Positions 37,171 through 43,972 of a stretch of DNA of 64,000 nt are shown here, one piece after another. Each line of letters starts with the position of its first letter. Within the stretch, counting starts at the first letter, position 1. Where the stretch lies: positions 1 through 64,000 of the forward strand of contig JAENYG010000017.1 in assembly GCA_016841875.1 (NCBI GenBank), given 5' to 3'. The DNA is from Syntrophomonas sp. Lineage in GTDB: Bacteria > Bacillota > Syntrophomonadia > Syntrophomonadales > Syntrophomonadaceae. The notes below the pieces were generated by a model. It saw only the letters and a program-made list of their open reading frames with translations, was not told the DNA's origin and made no database searches. Made by a program: the position numbers and the translations under genes.

Positions 37171-37355
37171 TCACTATTACATAAACAACTAGAAAGAAAT
37201 CTTTATAGGAAAATTATGAGCCCGGGAAGTAAACAATCCCTCCAAACTCTGGCAAGAGGCCCGGATTATCAATATCGTTATCATAAGAAACTCACTTTTT
37301 CGCCAATACACATCTGCGGAGACCGGATTAAATTTTAATGAAAGGAAGAAATATA

Positions 37356-38480
37356 ATGACAACTAGTATTGACAGTTTTTCGGGGATAAGAGAAATCGCT
37401 ATTATGCAGCTCAAGTCGTTCAAGGAAACAGGCGGCAAAGTGGTGGGCCGCTACTGCGCCTATACTCCCACTGAACTCATCCTGGCAGCTGGAGCAGTGC
37501 CGGTAGGTCTGTGTGGGACCAGCGAAAAGCCCATTCCAGCTGCGGAAGAAGTGCTGCCCCGAAATTTATGCCCCCTGGTAAAATCATCCTTTGGTTTTGC
37601 CGCTACCGACACCTGCCCCTTTTTTCATTTTTCAGATTTTATCCTGGGTGAAACTACTTGTGATGGAAAAAAGAAGATGTTCGAGATTATGCAGGATATA
37701 AAACCGGTACACGTTATGCAGCTTCCTTATGCGGGTTTCGAACATGCACTGGAGATGTGGACCGAAGAACTGCGCCGGCTGCGCCGACATCTGGAAGACC
37801 AATTTGAAGTAAAGATAAGTGATGATGATATTTGGCAGGCCATCCACCTGGTTAACCGGGAAACAGCAGCCCTTAAAGCGGTATGCGATCTCAACCAGGC
37901 AGACCCCCCACTTATGAGCGGAAAGGAATTATTATCTGTATCCTGGTCCCGCAGTTTCAGCACCGATGTAGAAGAAGTGATAATGATGCTGGAAGAGCTT
38001 AGAGCCAGCCTTACTGCCACTCCCAGCAGTAAGCAGGCCGGCCTGCCCCGCATTCTTCTAACTGGCTGCCCGGTCGGAACCGGCACCGAAAAGGTGATCG
38101 TACTGGCTGAAGACCTGGGAGCTAACGTAGTAGCCATGGAACTTTGCAGCGGCTACAAAACCCTCAGTCTGCAGACTGATACCTCCTATGATGACCCGAT
38201 TACTGCCCTGGCCAACAAATACCTGCAGATTCCCTGTTCTTGTATGAGTCCTAATCAGGGGAGACTGGAACTCATACAACAGATGATCAAGGATTTTCAG
38301 GTAGATGCGGTAATAGATCTGACCTGGCAGGCCTGCCACACTTATAATATTGAAGCTTATAAAGTCGGCCAGCTGGTCAGAAGCCTGGAATTGCCCTACC
38401 TGCAGTTGGAAACCGACTATTCCCAGGCTGATTTGGAAAGCTTGAAAGTTCGGATAGAAGCACTTTTGGAGATTATATAA
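37356..38480 (+). CDS. Double-cubane-cluster reductase (2-hydroxyacyl-CoA dehydratase D-like), copy 1
   Basis: A 374-residue HgdB/FldB-family protein of the single-subunit double-cubane-cluster type. Cysteine motifs are in order: RNLCPLVKSS, DTCPFFHFSDFILGETTCDG, a Cys in MELCSG, and PCSCMSPNQGR. ETTCDGKKKM is typical of this group, which binds an [8Fe-9S] double cubane and performs low-potential reductions of small substrates. The ATG at 37356 follows AAAGGAAG; an ATG six codons upstream lacks a site. A paralogue follows at 38782 after the MITE-like element. Confidence 0.8.
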   Translation: MTTSIDSFSGIREIAIMQLKSFKETGGKVVGRYCAYTPTELILAAGAVPVGLCGTSEKPIPAAEEVLPRNLCPLVKSSFGFAATDTCPFFHFSDFILGETTCDGKKKMFEIMQDIKPVHVMQLPYAGFEHALEMWTEELRRLRRHLEDQFEVKISDDDIWQAIHLVNRETAALKAVCDLNQADPPLMSGKELLSVSWSRSFSTDVEEVIMMLEELRASLTATPSSKQAGLPRILLTGCPVGTGTEKVIVLAEDLGANVVAMELCSGYKTLSLQTDTSYDDPITALANKYLQIPCSCMSPNQGRLELIQQMIKDFQVDAVIDLTWQACHTYNIEAYKVGQLVRSLELPYLQLETDYSQADLESLKVRIEALLEII

Positions 38481-38489
38481 ATGATTTTA

Positions 38490-38735
38490 CTGCAAAAAGG
38501 TATAATGTGCTGGCTTGGATGCATGAATATTCCGTCGCCAAGACTCCTCATGGGAAACACCAACTGCTCGTCTTGCGGCTTCAGGGGGACGTTCCAATTC
38601 CGCATCCGTGCGGAGCGTCACTCTCGCCCCGTCCATGGGGCTCGCCCCCTTCCGTCGTTTCACCTCGCCGGGTGTTTCTACTATGCTTCGTCGACGGCTC
38701 CTGCATATTTATGCATCCAAACAGGGTTTTTGCAG
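38490..38735 (+). mobile_element. MITE-like element with nested terminal inverted repeats
   Basis: About 246 bases between the two reductase genes. The outer ends are CTGCAAAAA and TTTTTGCAG (perfect inverse). Inside are TTGGATGCATGAATAT (38515-38530) and ATATTTATGCATCCAA (38705-38720), inverse with one mismatch, and further in GAAACACC (38558 region) and GGTGTTTC. The centre is GC-rich with small hairpins (CCGCATCCGTGCGG, CCCGTCCATGGGG). No transposase frame is present. It sits within the operon and may fold as a large RNA structure. Confidence 0.6.
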
Positions 38736-38781
38736 GTGAATAATAAATAGCATCTTAATAATATAAAAGGAGTGGAGAAAT

Positions 38782-40056
38782 ATGGCTGATTACCGTCAGA
38801 TGTGGAGCGATCTGGGGATGGATCTGGAAAAACATGATATTTTATGCGAAGTCCTCCCCGATGCTTTTGGGGGGGTTTATCTCTCCCAGGAAAACCGCCC
38901 CGAGGGGATGGATTACTTTAATTTTGTCGTAGCTGAAATTCATGGAGTTAGACCTGCTGAATTGATAGAGCATCAACAGAATGGAGGTAAGGTTTTTGGC
39001 ACCTTCTGTGTTTACGTTCCAGATGAAATAATATTTGCTGCTGGGGGCATTGCCACAGGATTATGTGGAGGTTCTCAGTTCTGGGTACCGGGTGGGGAGA
39101 AAGTCCTGCCGGCTAACACCTGCCCGTTAATCAAGGCCTCGGTTGGTGCTCGTTTGGATGGCACCTGCCCCTTTTTTAAGATAGCTGATATGTACATTGG
39201 TGAGACTACCTGCGATGGCAAGAAAAAGGCCTGGGAAATTCTTAATCAGGATGTTCCGGTTTATGTAATGGATCTCCCGCAGATGAAACGAGAAAAAGAC
39301 CTCCAAGCCTGGGAAGGTGAAATCAAATCTCTTATGCAAAAGGTCGAAGAAGTAACCGGCAATAAAATTACCATAGAGGCACTGGCAGAAAATATAAAGC
39401 TTATTAATGAAAAAAGGAATGCCCTGGCCCGCCTATATGCATTCCGCAAGAATTCACCGGTACCAATCAGCGGCAAAGATGCTCTTTTAATAACCCAGAT
39501 CGCCTTTTATGATGACCCGGGCCGCTTCACTGACCAGCTTAACTCACTATGCGACGAACTGGATAAAAGAGTATCCGCCGGCGAAGGAGTTTTCCCGGCT
39601 GATGTTCCCCGTATAATGATTACTGGAACACCCATGGCTATACCCAACTGGAAACTGCATCACGTAGTGGAAACCCTGGGAGCAGCAGTAGTAGTAGAAG
39701 AATTATGTACTGGAGTACGTTATTTCGAGAACCCGGTGAACCAGAGCGGCAGCAGCCTGGATGAACAGGTGCAGGCTCTGGCAGAACGCTATATGAAGAC
39801 CAACTGTGCCTGCTTCACTCCGAATCAGGGTCGGGTTGAAGATATTCTGCGACTAGCCGAAGAATATGGAGTAGATGGAATAATCGATTGCAACCTGCAG
39901 TTCTGCGGCCTTTACTCCACAGAGAGTTATCTGGTACAGCAGGCTCTAAAAAAGGCTGGAATTCCAGTGATTCATATAGAAACCGATTACAGTGAACAGG
40001 ATTTTGAGCAAATCAGAACCCGAGTAGAAGCATTCCTGGAAATGCTTGAAAAATAG
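38782..40056 (+). CDS. Double-cubane-cluster reductase, copy 2
   Basis: A 424-residue paralogue of the gene at 37356 with a 45-residue extra N-terminus. Motifs: NTCPLIKAS, GTCPFFKIADMYIGETTCDG, VEELCTG and NCACFTPNQGR. The spacing of Cys residues is the same, so it should bind the same cluster type. AAAAGGAGTGG precedes the ATG. The ATP-driven activator (HgdC-type, ASKHA fold) that normally feeds electrons to such enzymes is not in the window. Substrate unknown. Confidence 0.8.
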   Translation: MADYRQMWSDLGMDLEKHDILCEVLPDAFGGVYLSQENRPEGMDYFNFVVAEIHGVRPAELIEHQQNGGKVFGTFCVYVPDEIIFAAGGIATGLCGGSQFWVPGGEKVLPANTCPLIKASVGARLDGTCPFFKIADMYIGETTCDGKKKAWEILNQDVPVYVMDLPQMKREKDLQAWEGEIKSLMQKVEEVTGNKITIEALAENIKLINEKRNALARLYAFRKNSPVPISGKDALLITQIAFYDDPGRFTDQLNSLCDELDKRVSAGEGVFPADVPRIMITGTPMAIPNWKLHHVVETLGAAVVVEELCTGVRYFENPVNQSGSSLDEQVQALAERYMKTNCACFTPNQGRVEDILRLAEEYGVDGIIDCNLQFCGLYSTESYLVQQALKKAGIPVIHIETDYSEQDFEQIRTRVEAFLEMLEK

Positions 40057-40064
40057 GTACTTAT

Positions 40065-40334
40065 ATGGATAATACCCAGGGAATATATACATATTACATA
40101 TTGTTTCCTAACCACCATGAAGGATTGAAGGCCCACAAGTACCTGAAGGAAGCCGGGATAAAATGTACCATTTCCCCGACTCCCCGAGAGGCCAGTAAGT
40201 CTTGCGGCATTTCCCTGCTGATCGACGAAGAAAATGTTAGCTCGGCCAGGAACGCTATTGAAGATAGCAGTATAAAAATCGATGGTATAGTAAAGATTCT
40301 GAGCAAGAATCAAAATGGATACCGGTCTTGTTAA
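40065..40334 (+). CDS. DUF3343 protein (putative Se/S carrier-like)
   Basis: An 89-residue protein with the DUF3343 pattern: YYILFPNHHEGLKAHKYLK, then CTISPTPREASKSCGISLLI, where a conserved Cys lies in the SCG motif. The family is often encoded next to double-cubane-cluster or selenium-related genes and may carry sulfur or selenium; the evidence is contextual. It starts nine bases after the reductase gene and ends at a strong terminator. Confidence 0.75.
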   Translation: MDNTQGIYTYYILFPNHHEGLKAHKYLKEAGIKCTISPTPREASKSCGISLLIDEENVSSARNAIEDSSIKIDGIVKILSKNQNGYRSC

Positions 40335-40392: not shown

Positions 40393-40653
40393 AAAAAATT
40401 TATCACCTGATATTAATTAAGCTCAAATCATGGTGGCTGCCTTTTTATTGGTTTTGAAAACGGGAGGAACTCCTGTTAAAAATATTTTTTAGTTTCAAAG
40501 AGAGTTAACTAACCGAGACCGTGCATAGAATAATATAAAGCTAAGCAAAATTTTATATTGAAATTTATTTACAAATTTGAGAAAATACAAGAGTAGGAAT
40601 AAATGCCAGCTCTAAGTTGGTTTTAAGTAAATGTAGAATTAATATTCTCTTAT

Positions 40654-40768
40654 AAGGTAGGAAGGTTAGAACGGTAGGTAAAAGAATGAGGTATTAAAAC
40701 CTGTTTTTCGTTCTCTTAACGGGATGAGGTATTTAATGCTGTTCTTTGACTCCTGCGGGAGTTTTTTT
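40654..40768 (+). ncRNA. Candidate regulatory leader RNA, copy 1
   Basis: A block GGTAGGAAGGT, ACGGTAGGTAAAAG, AATGAGGT is followed by a variable stem and by a terminator (ACTCCTGCGGGAGT then T7). AAAGAA near 40680 pairs with TTCTTT near 40742. After the terminator comes GGAGG (about 40793) but no gene; the triplet at start position is ACG. This copy thus seems to have lost its gene. I know no riboswitch class with these motifs. Confidence 0.6.
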
Positions 40769-40909
40769 GTTACCTTGATATTTGAGGCAAAGGAGGCGAA
40801 GACGACTAGTATCATAGATTGTGTTAATCACCATTGTTATTTGATACTGCAGTTCAAAAGCCCTTCAAGGTTTTTTAAAGTAGTATTGTAGGATGGCTAA
40901 ACAAGTAAA

Positions 40910-41027
40910 AAGGTAGGAAGGTAAGACGGTAGGTAAAAGAATGAGGTGTTAAACCTGGTAATCCTGGCTGCACTTTGCGCGAGCAGGATTCAGCACCATT
41001 CTTGGGACTCCTATGGGAGTTTTTTTT
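40910..41027 (+). ncRNA. Candidate regulatory leader RNA, copy 2, upstream of dctP
   Basis: Copy 2 repeats the 5' block of copy 1 almost exactly (GGTAGGAAGGT, GACGGTAGGTAAAAGAATGA). The stem arms are different in sequence but keep pairing: AAGAAT...GGTGTT with AGCACC-ATTCTT, and AATCCTG with CAGGATT. It ends in ACTCCTATGGGAGT plus T8 at 41007-41027, 33 bases before the dctP start. Conserved 5' box, covarying stem and terminator are the pattern of a riboswitch or protein-controlled attenuator. Confidence 0.65.
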
Positions 41028-41059
41028 CTTGCCTGAAGCCAGTTACAAGGAGGAGAAAA

Positions 41060-42157
41060 ATGCAAGAATTGTTGGGTAAAAAAGGATCTAAAAGCATTAC
41101 CGGAATAAGTAAAAAGCTCTTATCTCTGCTGATTATTGTGATACTGGGTGCTGCTATGGGATGTTCAAATACCAGCAGTGACCCTGGACAGAAGCAGGCA
41201 GAGGTGGTTGAACTGCGACTGGCACATTTTTTCCCCAGTACTCACCCGGCTGAGACTGAATTAATCCAGCCCTGGATTAAAGCTGTAGAAGAAGCAACTA
41301 ATGGACAGGTGAAAATAACCAGTTACCCCAATCAAACCCTCTTGAATGCTGATTCCATATATGCCGGGGTAGTTGATGGCAGTGCTGATCTGGGGCTTTC
41401 ATGTTTTTCATACACCCGGGGTCGTTTCCCGATACTGGAAGCCTTTGAACTGCCAGGGGTTACTTATAATAATTCCAAAGCTGCCAGCAAAGTGGCCTGG
41501 GAAGGCATACAAGAACTTAATCCCCCAGAAATTCAGGATACCAAACTTATGATGGTACTAACTACCGGCCCGGGTGACTTGTATACCAAGGATCCAGTTA
41601 GTAACCTCCAGGATCTGCAGGGCATGGAAATCAGAGCTACCGGCCTTAGTGCCAAAACCCTTGAAGCTCTGGGCGCTGTCCCAGCAGCTATGCCCCAGTC
41701 GGACGCATATGAAGCTCTGACCAAAGGTGTAGTCAAGGGAAATCTTGGCCCGGTTGAAGTCCTGAAGGGATGGAAACAGGCAGAAGTTACCAGTTATATC
41801 ACCGAGACCCCGTTCTTATATAATACTTTGTTTTTCATTACCATGAATCTTGATAAATGGAACTCACTGGACCCGGATATTCAAGAAGCAATTGAAGCCG
41901 TCAATGATGAGTATTTTGAACAGGTAGCTATAGGTTTATGGGATAAACAAAATGAGGATGCCTTAAAGTATGCAGTCGATGAGCAGGGCATGGAGGTCAT
42001 CACCCTCTCCCAGGAGGAAAGCGATAAGTGGATTGATCTGGTCCAGCCCATTCAAGACGAGTTTGTTGCCAGAATGGATGCAGCCGGCCAGCCTGGACAG
42101 GAAATACTGGACACGGTTAAGCGCCTGGCTGATAAATACAACGCCGAATACCAATAA
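41060..42157 (+). CDS. dctP: TRAP transporter solute-binding lipoprotein
   Basis: A 365-residue DctP-family receptor. The signal peptide ends in a lipobox (GAAMGC, Cys35), so it is anchored to the outer face of the membrane. LRLAHFFPSTHPAE starts the mature fold; GMEIRATGLSAKTLEALGA contains the conserved Arg that binds the substrate carboxylate. The substrate is therefore probably an organic acid. AAGGAGG precedes the ATG at 41060. Expression is probably controlled by the leader RNA upstream. Confidence 0.9.
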   Translation: MQELLGKKGSKSITGISKKLLSLLIIVILGAAMGCSNTSSDPGQKQAEVVELRLAHFFPSTHPAETELIQPWIKAVEEATNGQVKITSYPNQTLLNADSIYAGVVDGSADLGLSCFSYTRGRFPILEAFELPGVTYNNSKAASKVAWEGIQELNPPEIQDTKLMMVLTTGPGDLYTKDPVSNLQDLQGMEIRATGLSAKTLEALGAVPAAMPQSDAYEALTKGVVKGNLGPVEVLKGWKQAEVTSYITETPFLYNTLFFITMNLDKWNSLDPDIQEAIEAVNDEYFEQVAIGLWDKQNEDALKYAVDEQGMEVITLSQEESDKWIDLVQPIQDEFVARMDAAGQPGQEILDTVKRLADKYNAEYQ

Positions 42158-42179: not shown

Positions 42180-42665
42180 ATGAACAAGTTAGCCCGGCTG
42201 GCAAAGGACATAAGCCAGTATATGGATTATCTGGCGGGATTATGTATTGTGGCAGTGATGCTGCTGGTAGTAAGCAATGTAGTGCTTCGCACGCTTTTGC
42301 ATCGGCCTATACTGGGAACCTACGAATATGTGAACATGCTTACCGCTGTAGGTGTTGGCCTGGCCTTAGCATACTGCGCCTATCAGAATGGTCATATTGC
42401 GGTAGATTTCATAATCGAGCGTCTTTCGCAAAAACTGCAGGCAGCGGCCGATGTGCTTACCAATGTTATAGCTCTATCATTCTGGACTCTGTCCGCCTGG
42501 TATGTGGCTAAATATGCAGGAACTATGTTTGAAAGCAACACTGTATCACCAACCACCCAGGTACCATTGTCTCCAGTGGTCTATCTGATTGCTTTGGGGC
42601 TCCTGGCTTTAAGCCTGGTATTATCAGTTAGGCTAACGGAATCAGTAAAGAGGGCTTTTAGATGA
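42180..42665 (+). CDS. dctQ: TRAP transporter small membrane subunit
   Basis: A 161-residue, four-helix DctQ protein (FIIERLSQKLQAAADVL in the conserved cytoplasmic loop region, preceded by ALAYCAYQNGHIAVD). It forms a complex with DctM. The stop overlaps the dctM ATG by four bases. Confidence 0.9.
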   Translation: MNKLARLAKDISQYMDYLAGLCIVAVMLLVVSNVVLRTLLHRPILGTYEYVNMLTAVGVGLALAYCAYQNGHIAVDFIIERLSQKLQAAADVLTNVIALSFWTLSAWYVAKYAGTMFESNTVSPTTQVPLSPVVYLIALGLLALSLVLSVRLTESVKRAFR

Positions 42666-43972
42666 ATTCTCTCGCTGCCGGACTTTTAGGATTAGCGGCC
42701 TTTATGCTGCTCTTGATACTTCGTATGCCGATTGCGTATGCTATGGCCCTGGTCGGATTTGTAGGTTTTAGCTGCCTTACTTCTGTATCTTCAAGTTTCA
42801 GTATGGTAGCCAAGGAAATCTACAACACTTTTTCTTCATATTCTCTAAGTGTTATTGTAATGTTCATCTGGATGGGATTTCTTGCCTATTACTCGGGCAT
42901 TGGAACTCGATTGTATGTGTTTGCATATAAGCTGATTGGACACTGGCCGGGCGGCCTGGCCATAGCTACTCAGCTAGCCTGTGGGGTTTTTGGCGCCATC
43001 TGCGGTTCTAATACGGCTACGGCAGCAACCATGGGTGCGATTGCCCTGCCAGAAATGAAAAAATATAATTATGATATGTCCCTGGCTACTGCGAGCATTG
43101 CTGCTGGCGGAGTGCTGGGGGTACTAATTCCTCCCAGCGTGATATTTATTGTTTACGGTATGGCTACCGAACAGTCTATTGGAAAACTGTTTATGGCCGG
43201 TATCATCCCGGGCATTATGCTTATGTTGTTTTATATTATCACCATCTGGATTTTAACTTTGCGCCAATCTGCTCTGGGTCCGGCTGGACCCAGAGCAGAT
43301 TGGAAAGAGCGTTTTGACAGCCTGCGCGGCGGCCTGGCCGAAGTGCTGTTTGTGTTTGCCTTATCCATGGGCGGCCTGTTTGCGGGATGGTTCACTCCCA
43401 CCGAAGCTGGGGCAGTAGGTGCTGCCGGTGTACTGCTGGTGGCACTGCTGGGTAGAAACTTGACTATAGAAAATTTCAAAAAATCTCTTTTCGATGCCAC
43501 CCGCACTACAGCCATGATTATGCTGATGATTGCTGGAGCTATGATATTCGGCCGCTTTATGGCCATCAGCCGGGTCCCTTTTGAACTAGCTTCCTGGGCC
43601 GGATCATTACCCCTTCCTCCGGTTGCGGTAATGGCCATTATTCTACTTATCTATCTGATCCTGGGCTGCTTTATCGATGCCCTGGCACTTATTCTATTGA
43701 CCATACCTATCTTCTTCCCGGTGGTGGTAAATACTCTGGGTTACGACCCGATATGGTTTGGAGTGATCATGGTTATGGTAGTAGCTATGGGGGTGATCAC
43801 TCCTCCGGTAGGTATGAATGTCTATGTGATCAAAGGAGTAGCACCAGAAATTCCGATAGAACTAATATTCAAGGGTATATGGCCTTTTCTCATCGCTTTG
43901 ATAATTTGTTTGATAGTATTAATAGCCTTTCCCTCCATCGCCACCTTCCTCCCCTATTCACTAATGAAATAA
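42662..43972 (+). CDS. dctM: TRAP transporter large membrane subunit
   Basis: A 436-residue, roughly 12-helix DctM transporter. CGSNTATAATMGAIALPEM, GVLGVLIPPSVIFIVYG and GWFTPTEAGAVGA are the family motifs around the ion and substrate sites. It couples sodium or proton flow to uptake of the acid bound by DctP. The segment coding ALGPAGPRADWKE contains a 40-nt perfect palindrome (43264-43303), yet the protein sequence there is normal for the family. Confidence 0.93.
   Translation: MNSLAAGLLGLAAFMLLLILRMPIAYAMALVGFVGFSCLTSVSSSFSMVAKEIYNTFSSYSLSVIVMFIWMGFLAYYSGIGTRLYVFAYKLIGHWPGGLAIATQLACGVFGAICGSNTATAATMGAIALPEMKKYNYDMSLATASIAAGGVLGVLIPPSVIFIVYGMATEQSIGKLFMAGIIPGIMLMLFYIITIWILTLRQSALGPAGPRADWKERFDSLRGGLAEVLFVFALSMGGLFAGWFTPTEAGAVGAAGVLLVALLGRNLTIENFKKSLFDATRTTAMIMLMIAGAMIFGRFMAISRVPFELASWAGSLPLPPVAVMAIILLIYLILGCFIDALALILLTIPIFFPVVVNTLGYDPIWFGVIMVMVVAMGVITPPVGMNVYVIKGVAPEIPIELIFKGIWPFLIALIICLIVLIAFPSIATFLPYSLMK
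43264..43303 (+). repeat. 40-nt perfect palindrome inside dctM
   Basis: An 18-base arm starting CCAATCTGCTCTGG is exactly inverse to the arm ending CAGATTGG, with loop GGCT. It lies fully within the reading frame. Confidence 0.9.

Follow-up and report, generated by a model that had tools for sequence, protein, structure and literature searches.

The window, that is, the whole 64,000-nucleotide stretch of Syntrophomonas sp. DNA analysed here, encodes on its forward strand a TRAP transporter, with the genes dctP for the solute-binding protein (41060-42157, Pfam PF03480, E = 3e-48), dctQ (42180-42665, PF04290, E = 4e-25) and dctM (42662-43972, PF06808, E = 1e-100). The solved structures nearest to the window's DctP include 4n6d, 4pgn/4pgp and 4nap, of which 4pgn/4pgp and 4nap are presumably the Desulfovibrio proteins solved with indole compounds. 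Upstream of the leader, positions 37338-40334 hold two genes for 2-hydroxyacyl-CoA dehydratase D components, then a Se/S-carrier-like gene; at the S. wolfei locus, no such genes adjoin dctP in the ORF lists.

Two tandem leader elements 5' of dctP

A preliminary description of this DNA had reported, at 40654-41027, two elements of about 115 nt that share a 5' block and end in an ACTCC/GGAGT terminator, the second of them leading to dctP. We found all of this in the sequence, with T7 after the hairpin of copy 1, T8 after that of copy 2, and the dctP ATG at 41060. The two copies, the only ones found in the 3.97-Mb genome, are 75% identical across ~115 nt (E = 3e-12). The 5' limit given for them proved too short, since an additional cluster of GNAG motifs is located 20-60 nt 5' of each block.

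Copy 1, on the forward strand like copy 2, is composed of a first cluster of NAG triplets recognised by GTAG enrichment (40593-40636, with GUAG at 40593 and 40633 and a small hairpin between them), a second cluster corresponding to the described 5' block (40656-40678, GGUAGGAAGGUUAGAACGGUAGG), a stem P1 (40681-40747) and an intrinsic terminator (40748-40768, GACTCCTGCGGGAG followed by T7). In the same way, copy 2 contains a first cluster with GCAG at 40849 and GUAG at 40880 and 40888, the last two 8 nt apart (40849-40891), the block (40912-40933, GGUAGGAAGGUAAGACGGUAGG), P1 (40937-41003) and the terminator (41006-41027, GACTCCTATGGGAG followed by T8). The sequence of P1 is unlike in the two copies and pairing is present in both, as the preliminary description had it, and also in homologues. 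A candidate promoter of the leader, TTGAAA-N17-GAAAAT, was found at 40558-40586 on the forward strand by sequence match only; by eye, the four sister species carry the same -35/-10 pair, also spaced by 17 nt, at this spot.

Two smaller features accompany the copies. At 40784-40800, 3' of the copy 1 terminator, a Shine-Dalgarno-like AAAGGAGGCGAA without a suitably spaced start codon is present in all five species of the genus, perhaps as a remnant of the leader duplication. The U-tract of each copy (40770-40774 and 41028-41033), like that of most dctP leaders, is followed by a TTACC/TTGCC-like motif that could pair with GGYAA just 3' of the block (GGUAA:UUACC, GGCAA:UUGCC).

The tandem pair lies at the same locus in 5/5 available species of the genus, and the block, with three mismatches or fewer, was found at 28 sites in 24/63 genomes of the order, against 2 sites for the reversed-pattern control; the pair is therefore not due to chance. 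Single copies are located directly 5' of dctP in Syntrophomonas wolfei subsp. methylbutyratica, in the genome taken to be S. wolfei Goettingen, and widely among other Syntrophomonadales. A search of 84,980 species genomes with the exact block pattern gave 21 stretches, 18 of them upstream of dctP and 3 noise. In the pattern searches, matches within coding sequence, or in Streptococcus, Neolewinella or a Nitrospirae MAG, were discounted as noise. A variant block precedes the same dctP in two further genera (g3 and g4), and one genome outside the class also carries the dctP leader.

Across 25 non-redundant homologues, the terminal stem has on average 10.2 pairs compared to 3.1 in dinucleotide shuffles, with a mean fold z of -3.1. 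Among the only five rows of the genus, 95% of the cells were paired and the covariation score was not above that of column shuffles; a covariance model built from trimmed leaders retained the terminator pairs alone. No Rfam family attained its gathering score in the window, and 40654-41027 itself gave at best a weak match with E = 1, in agreement with the claim that the element matches no known class. Neither of the outcomes named beforehand as refuting, an Rfam hit or an absence of covariation in homologues, was obtained: Rfam gave no hit, and the homologues retain the pairing of the stem. Scanned in turn, the homologous leaders showed no family at the array coordinates, three of them containing a known RNA elsewhere. 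A leader peptide encoded 3' of the block (MRC*, MRY*) was rejected, as sister species do not conserve it.

The NAG-triplet array and the genes that carry it

Upstream of the block, the homologues, related sequences included, exhibited 65 GTAG for 17.3 expected and 23 GCAG for 8.7 expected, with successive GYAG within clusters mostly 8 or 9 nt apart. The block itself reads NAG-N6-NAG-N4/5-NAG, the middle triplet being UAG, AAG, GAG or CAG. Each leader thus carries its NAG triplets in two clusters, the upstream GYAG cluster and this NAG-type block, separated mostly by 18-28 nt in dctP leaders and by 14-26 nt in aroF leaders. In many leaders the first cluster comprises 2-5 triplets, in some dctP leaders it is degenerate, and additional GUAGs in some species occupy the position of the small hairpin in others. 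A leader contains about 4-6 GYAG at a period of 8-9 nt, and both the number and the padding of the repeats vary. The genes that arrays precede are unrelated, as are the structures downstream, and some arrays overlap a Shine-Dalgarno sequence without any terminator. Such a periodic array looks like the site of an oligomeric single-strand RNA-binding protein, rather than a ligand pocket.

Two other readings of the motif were discarded. A two-tier G-quadruplex in the block, judged from its sequence only, was disfavoured by the conservation of the UA/AA loops and by the GCAG variants, both of which favour a sequence reading. An ops/RfaH-like element, to which GGCGGTAG in one homologue had pointed, was dropped after the periodic NAG arrays emerged.

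Outside dctP, the array is found at aroF, coding for DAHP synthase. The pattern GTAGTATGGTAGGATGGTGGGAA, with three mismatches or fewer, is present in 35/63 genomes of the class, the window's own genome among them, and absent for the reversed control (0); nearly all sites inspected are directly 5' of aroF. In these leaders the spacer pairs with the 5' arm of the terminator in an alternative hairpin of -7.2 kcal/mol compared to -4.2 kcal/mol in shuffles, ranking at 0.05 or better in 9/21 cases, and this hairpin is a predicted antiterminator beside the array. Some aroF copies of the class (three loci) have a T-box-like leader (GGGTGGTACCAC) in place of the NAG array.

The array was found also 5' of tyrA in S. 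wolfei. Genes for tryptophan ABC binding proteins of the TrpX type carry it in G053, in G180 and in four genomes that belong to another family; the three TrpX-type proteins scanned matched NCBIfam NF041285 with E of 1e-97 to 2e-107, under its curated cut-off. An MFS transporter gene follows the element in four genomes belonging to two families, and the one scanned matched the NCBIfam L-lactate MFS transporter SfMCT (409 bits for a cut-off of 320). Weaker cases, of one or two loci each and with the array near the start codon, are an LctP-like permease, a sodium:solute symporter and a PaaK-like ligase. Arrays are present at hutP and aroH as well. Aromatic amino acids and aryl acids are the theme that these genes share.

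A HutP homologue encoded beside aroH

A HutP homologue (PF09021) was detected in 54/63 genomes of the class and in 35/35 of the good ones. The protein of the window's genome belongs to the family, scoring 166 bits against PF09021 where B. subtilis HutP scores 111 and the cut-off is 25, and 15 other homologues are 69-83% identical to it. Its AlphaFold2 model (pLDDT 90.8) has the HutP fold, all strong PDB matches being HutP with TM up to 0.76. Against PDB sequences, neither single-sequence nor profile searches with the homologue retrieved a HutP, and hhalign was weak, so that homology rests on Pfam and on the fold comparison. The B. subtilis reference sequence was confirmed against PDB 1vea; its positions H73, H77 and H138, which we take to be the L-histidine and metal site, are not histidine in the clostridial proteins.

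The chorismate mutase gene aroH is directly 3' of hutP in 29/30 class loci examined, and aroF is nearby in many. Upstream of hutP, at four loci, we observed a GFGGQGV-motif gene, like the gamma subunit of a 2-oxoacid:acceptor oxidoreductase. Genus g4 (G010-G013) encodes a second, diverged HutP (E about 1e-32; e.g. G013:C2:390252-390668), located about 8-13 kb away from the variant leader of dctP.

GYAG pairs at exactly 8 nt are concentrated around hutP: 8 were counted in the 90 nt downstream in the class, whereas in the phylum sample, whose hutP loci are the best-scoring ones and not random, the 300 nt upstream held 8 and the 90 nt downstream held 12. Other distances gave 0-3, and control DNA of the same loci was flat. 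An array with a terminator lies in front of hutP at four loci, and at five loci an array overlaps the aroH Shine-Dalgarno sequence, which is what autogenous control would look like. These flanking arrays mirror the HutP site of B. subtilis, located between hutP and hutH. HutP was present in 22/23 array-bearing genomes of the phylum compared to 235/375 others (Fisher p = 6e-4, uncorrected for relatedness), the exception being G180, which is 80% complete. This co-occurrence is weak evidence, since HutP is common (257/398 sampled genomes of the phylum).

Proposed reading of the arrays and its rivals

We infer that the HutP homologue binds these arrays, and consider it probable that such attenuators, of which copies 1 and 2 are a tandem, place a regulon of aromatic amino acid and aryl-acid genes under the control of a HutP-family protein. 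Each copy would be a protein-dependent transcription attenuator, in which two single-stranded NAG clusters separated by about 20 nt, with mainly GUAG or GCAG triplets at intervals of about 8 nt, are followed by the P1 hairpin and an intrinsic terminator. The protein, encoded elsewhere beside aroH, would bind both clusters as the RNA emerges and set the dctPQM terminator, and the same protein and type of site would control aroF, tyrA, aroH, hutP, TrpX-type transporters and dctP. Two attenuators in series, as in this genus, would sharpen the response, and the effector would be an aromatic metabolite.

The bound protein would lower expression, the bound RNA being the terminated one; this sign is favoured because arrays overlap the aroH Shine-Dalgarno sequence and, at aroF, adjoin antiterminators. 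An antiterminator formed by the block and the 5' arm of the terminator, although such pairing is available, was rejected: it gave 6.6 pairs for 6.1 expected with shuffled blocks and a mean rank of 0.46 over 51 leaders, four trpX leaders being the exception (mean rank 0.11). Being not above that of shuffled blocks, this pairing does not decide the sign at dctP.

The known systems closest to these leaders are the HutP-dependent antiterminator of the B. subtilis hut operon, the TRAP (MtrB) attenuator of its trp operon and the T-box leaders of aromatic amino acid genes. Within a cluster, the triplets of the B. subtilis HutP site have a period of 7 (4-nt spacers), whereas the period in these leaders is 8-9. 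The HutP-dependent RNA site comprises two clusters of three NAG triplets ~20 nt apart, beside an intrinsic terminator (PMC7430163). The leaders share with the B. subtilis hut antiterminator two NAG clusters separated by ~20 nt, with an intrinsic terminator beside them, a homologous protein (PF09021) and a site adjoining hutP. They differ from the hut system in that the targets are aromatic genes and not those of histidine use, that the metal-binding histidines are missing from the protein, and that the probable sign is repression instead of antitermination. T-box leaders of aromatic amino acid genes likewise exert amino-acid-responsive control on a terminator, and a T-box-like leader serves some aroF of the class, but no Rfam T-box match was obtained in the window or in the array-bearing leaders tested, nor was GGGTGGTACCAC seen in them by eye.

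The TRAP protein MtrB, which controls the B. subtilis trp leader, could read the arrays in place of HutP, and we hold this weaker rival to be unlikely. MtrB (PF02081) is encoded in 45/63 genomes of the class, including that of the window, and the trp attenuator resembles the present leaders in its (G/U)AG-type repeats, its aromatic amino acid targets and, at aroF, the antiterminator against a terminator beside the array. The spacers of MtrB sites are of 2-3 nt, and here they are of 5 nt. MtrB binds (G/U)AG repeats and needs about 7-11 of them (PMC4027176), whereas these leaders, with about 4-6, have fewer and wider-spaced repeats than a TRAP site. Moreover, two genomes that have both leaders and HutP, G013 (20 contigs, 100% complete) and G040 (98%), gave no MtrB, and the arrays flank hutP, the gene whose flanks were examined.

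The preliminary description had proposed a riboswitch or an attenuator, and of these the attenuator stands. In a metabolite riboswitch, block and P1 would form an aptamer that binds a carboxylate or an aromatic metabolite and acts on the terminator directly. Such a riboswitch would account for the strongly conserved block and the covarying stem and terminator; tandem copies are known among riboswitches, and the protein reader is a proposed one. It is nevertheless very unlikely, because there is no Rfam match, repeat number and padding vary, arrays lacking a terminator overlap Shine-Dalgarno sites, and among the dctP, aroF and trpX leaders the downstream structures differ, only the periodic NAG array recurring. 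A butyrate riboswitch, to which the S. wolfei annotation had pointed, was dropped because the leader is common to aroF, tyrA and TrpX. The repeats might also be DNA operators of a transcription factor downstream of the promoter, with the terminator a separate feature, as direct repeats of near-constant period occur there too. This we regard as highly improbable: a terminator or Shine-Dalgarno sequence invariably follows the arrays on the same strand, their spacing shifts by 1 nt between homologues, which would rotate the sites on DNA, and the triplet code fits known RNA-binding proteins and not palindromic sites.

Control by the HutP homologue, the reading we prefer, also bears on the substrate of the transporter. 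The Syntrophomonas TRAP transporter has been read as a butyrate importer (PMC11087674), and we infer that the matched S. wolfei dctP operon is the operon of that study; as its leader groups with those of aromatic genes, the butyrate reading is in question. No paper with both HutP and chorismate mutase was found in the literature searched, which covers few subscription papers so that novelty is provisional, and none of the HutP papers found describes such an aromatic regulon in its title or abstract.

HutP is known as the regulator of a single operon, that of histidine use in Bacillus, and we know of no target for the clostridial homologue, which about two thirds of the sampled phylum genomes encode. 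In the class this protein is near-universal, extremely conserved and linked to aroH, and it is plausibly one of the main regulators that act after initiation on the aromatic amino acid genes of anaerobes. The chances seem to us evenly balanced that clostridial HutP is, in parallel to T-boxes and MtrB, a global sensor of aromatic metabolites that would use a period-8 NAG-array RNA code on terminators and Shine-Dalgarno sequences. If so, the HutP family would gain a function and a regulon, and the control of aroF would be explained where the T-box is absent.
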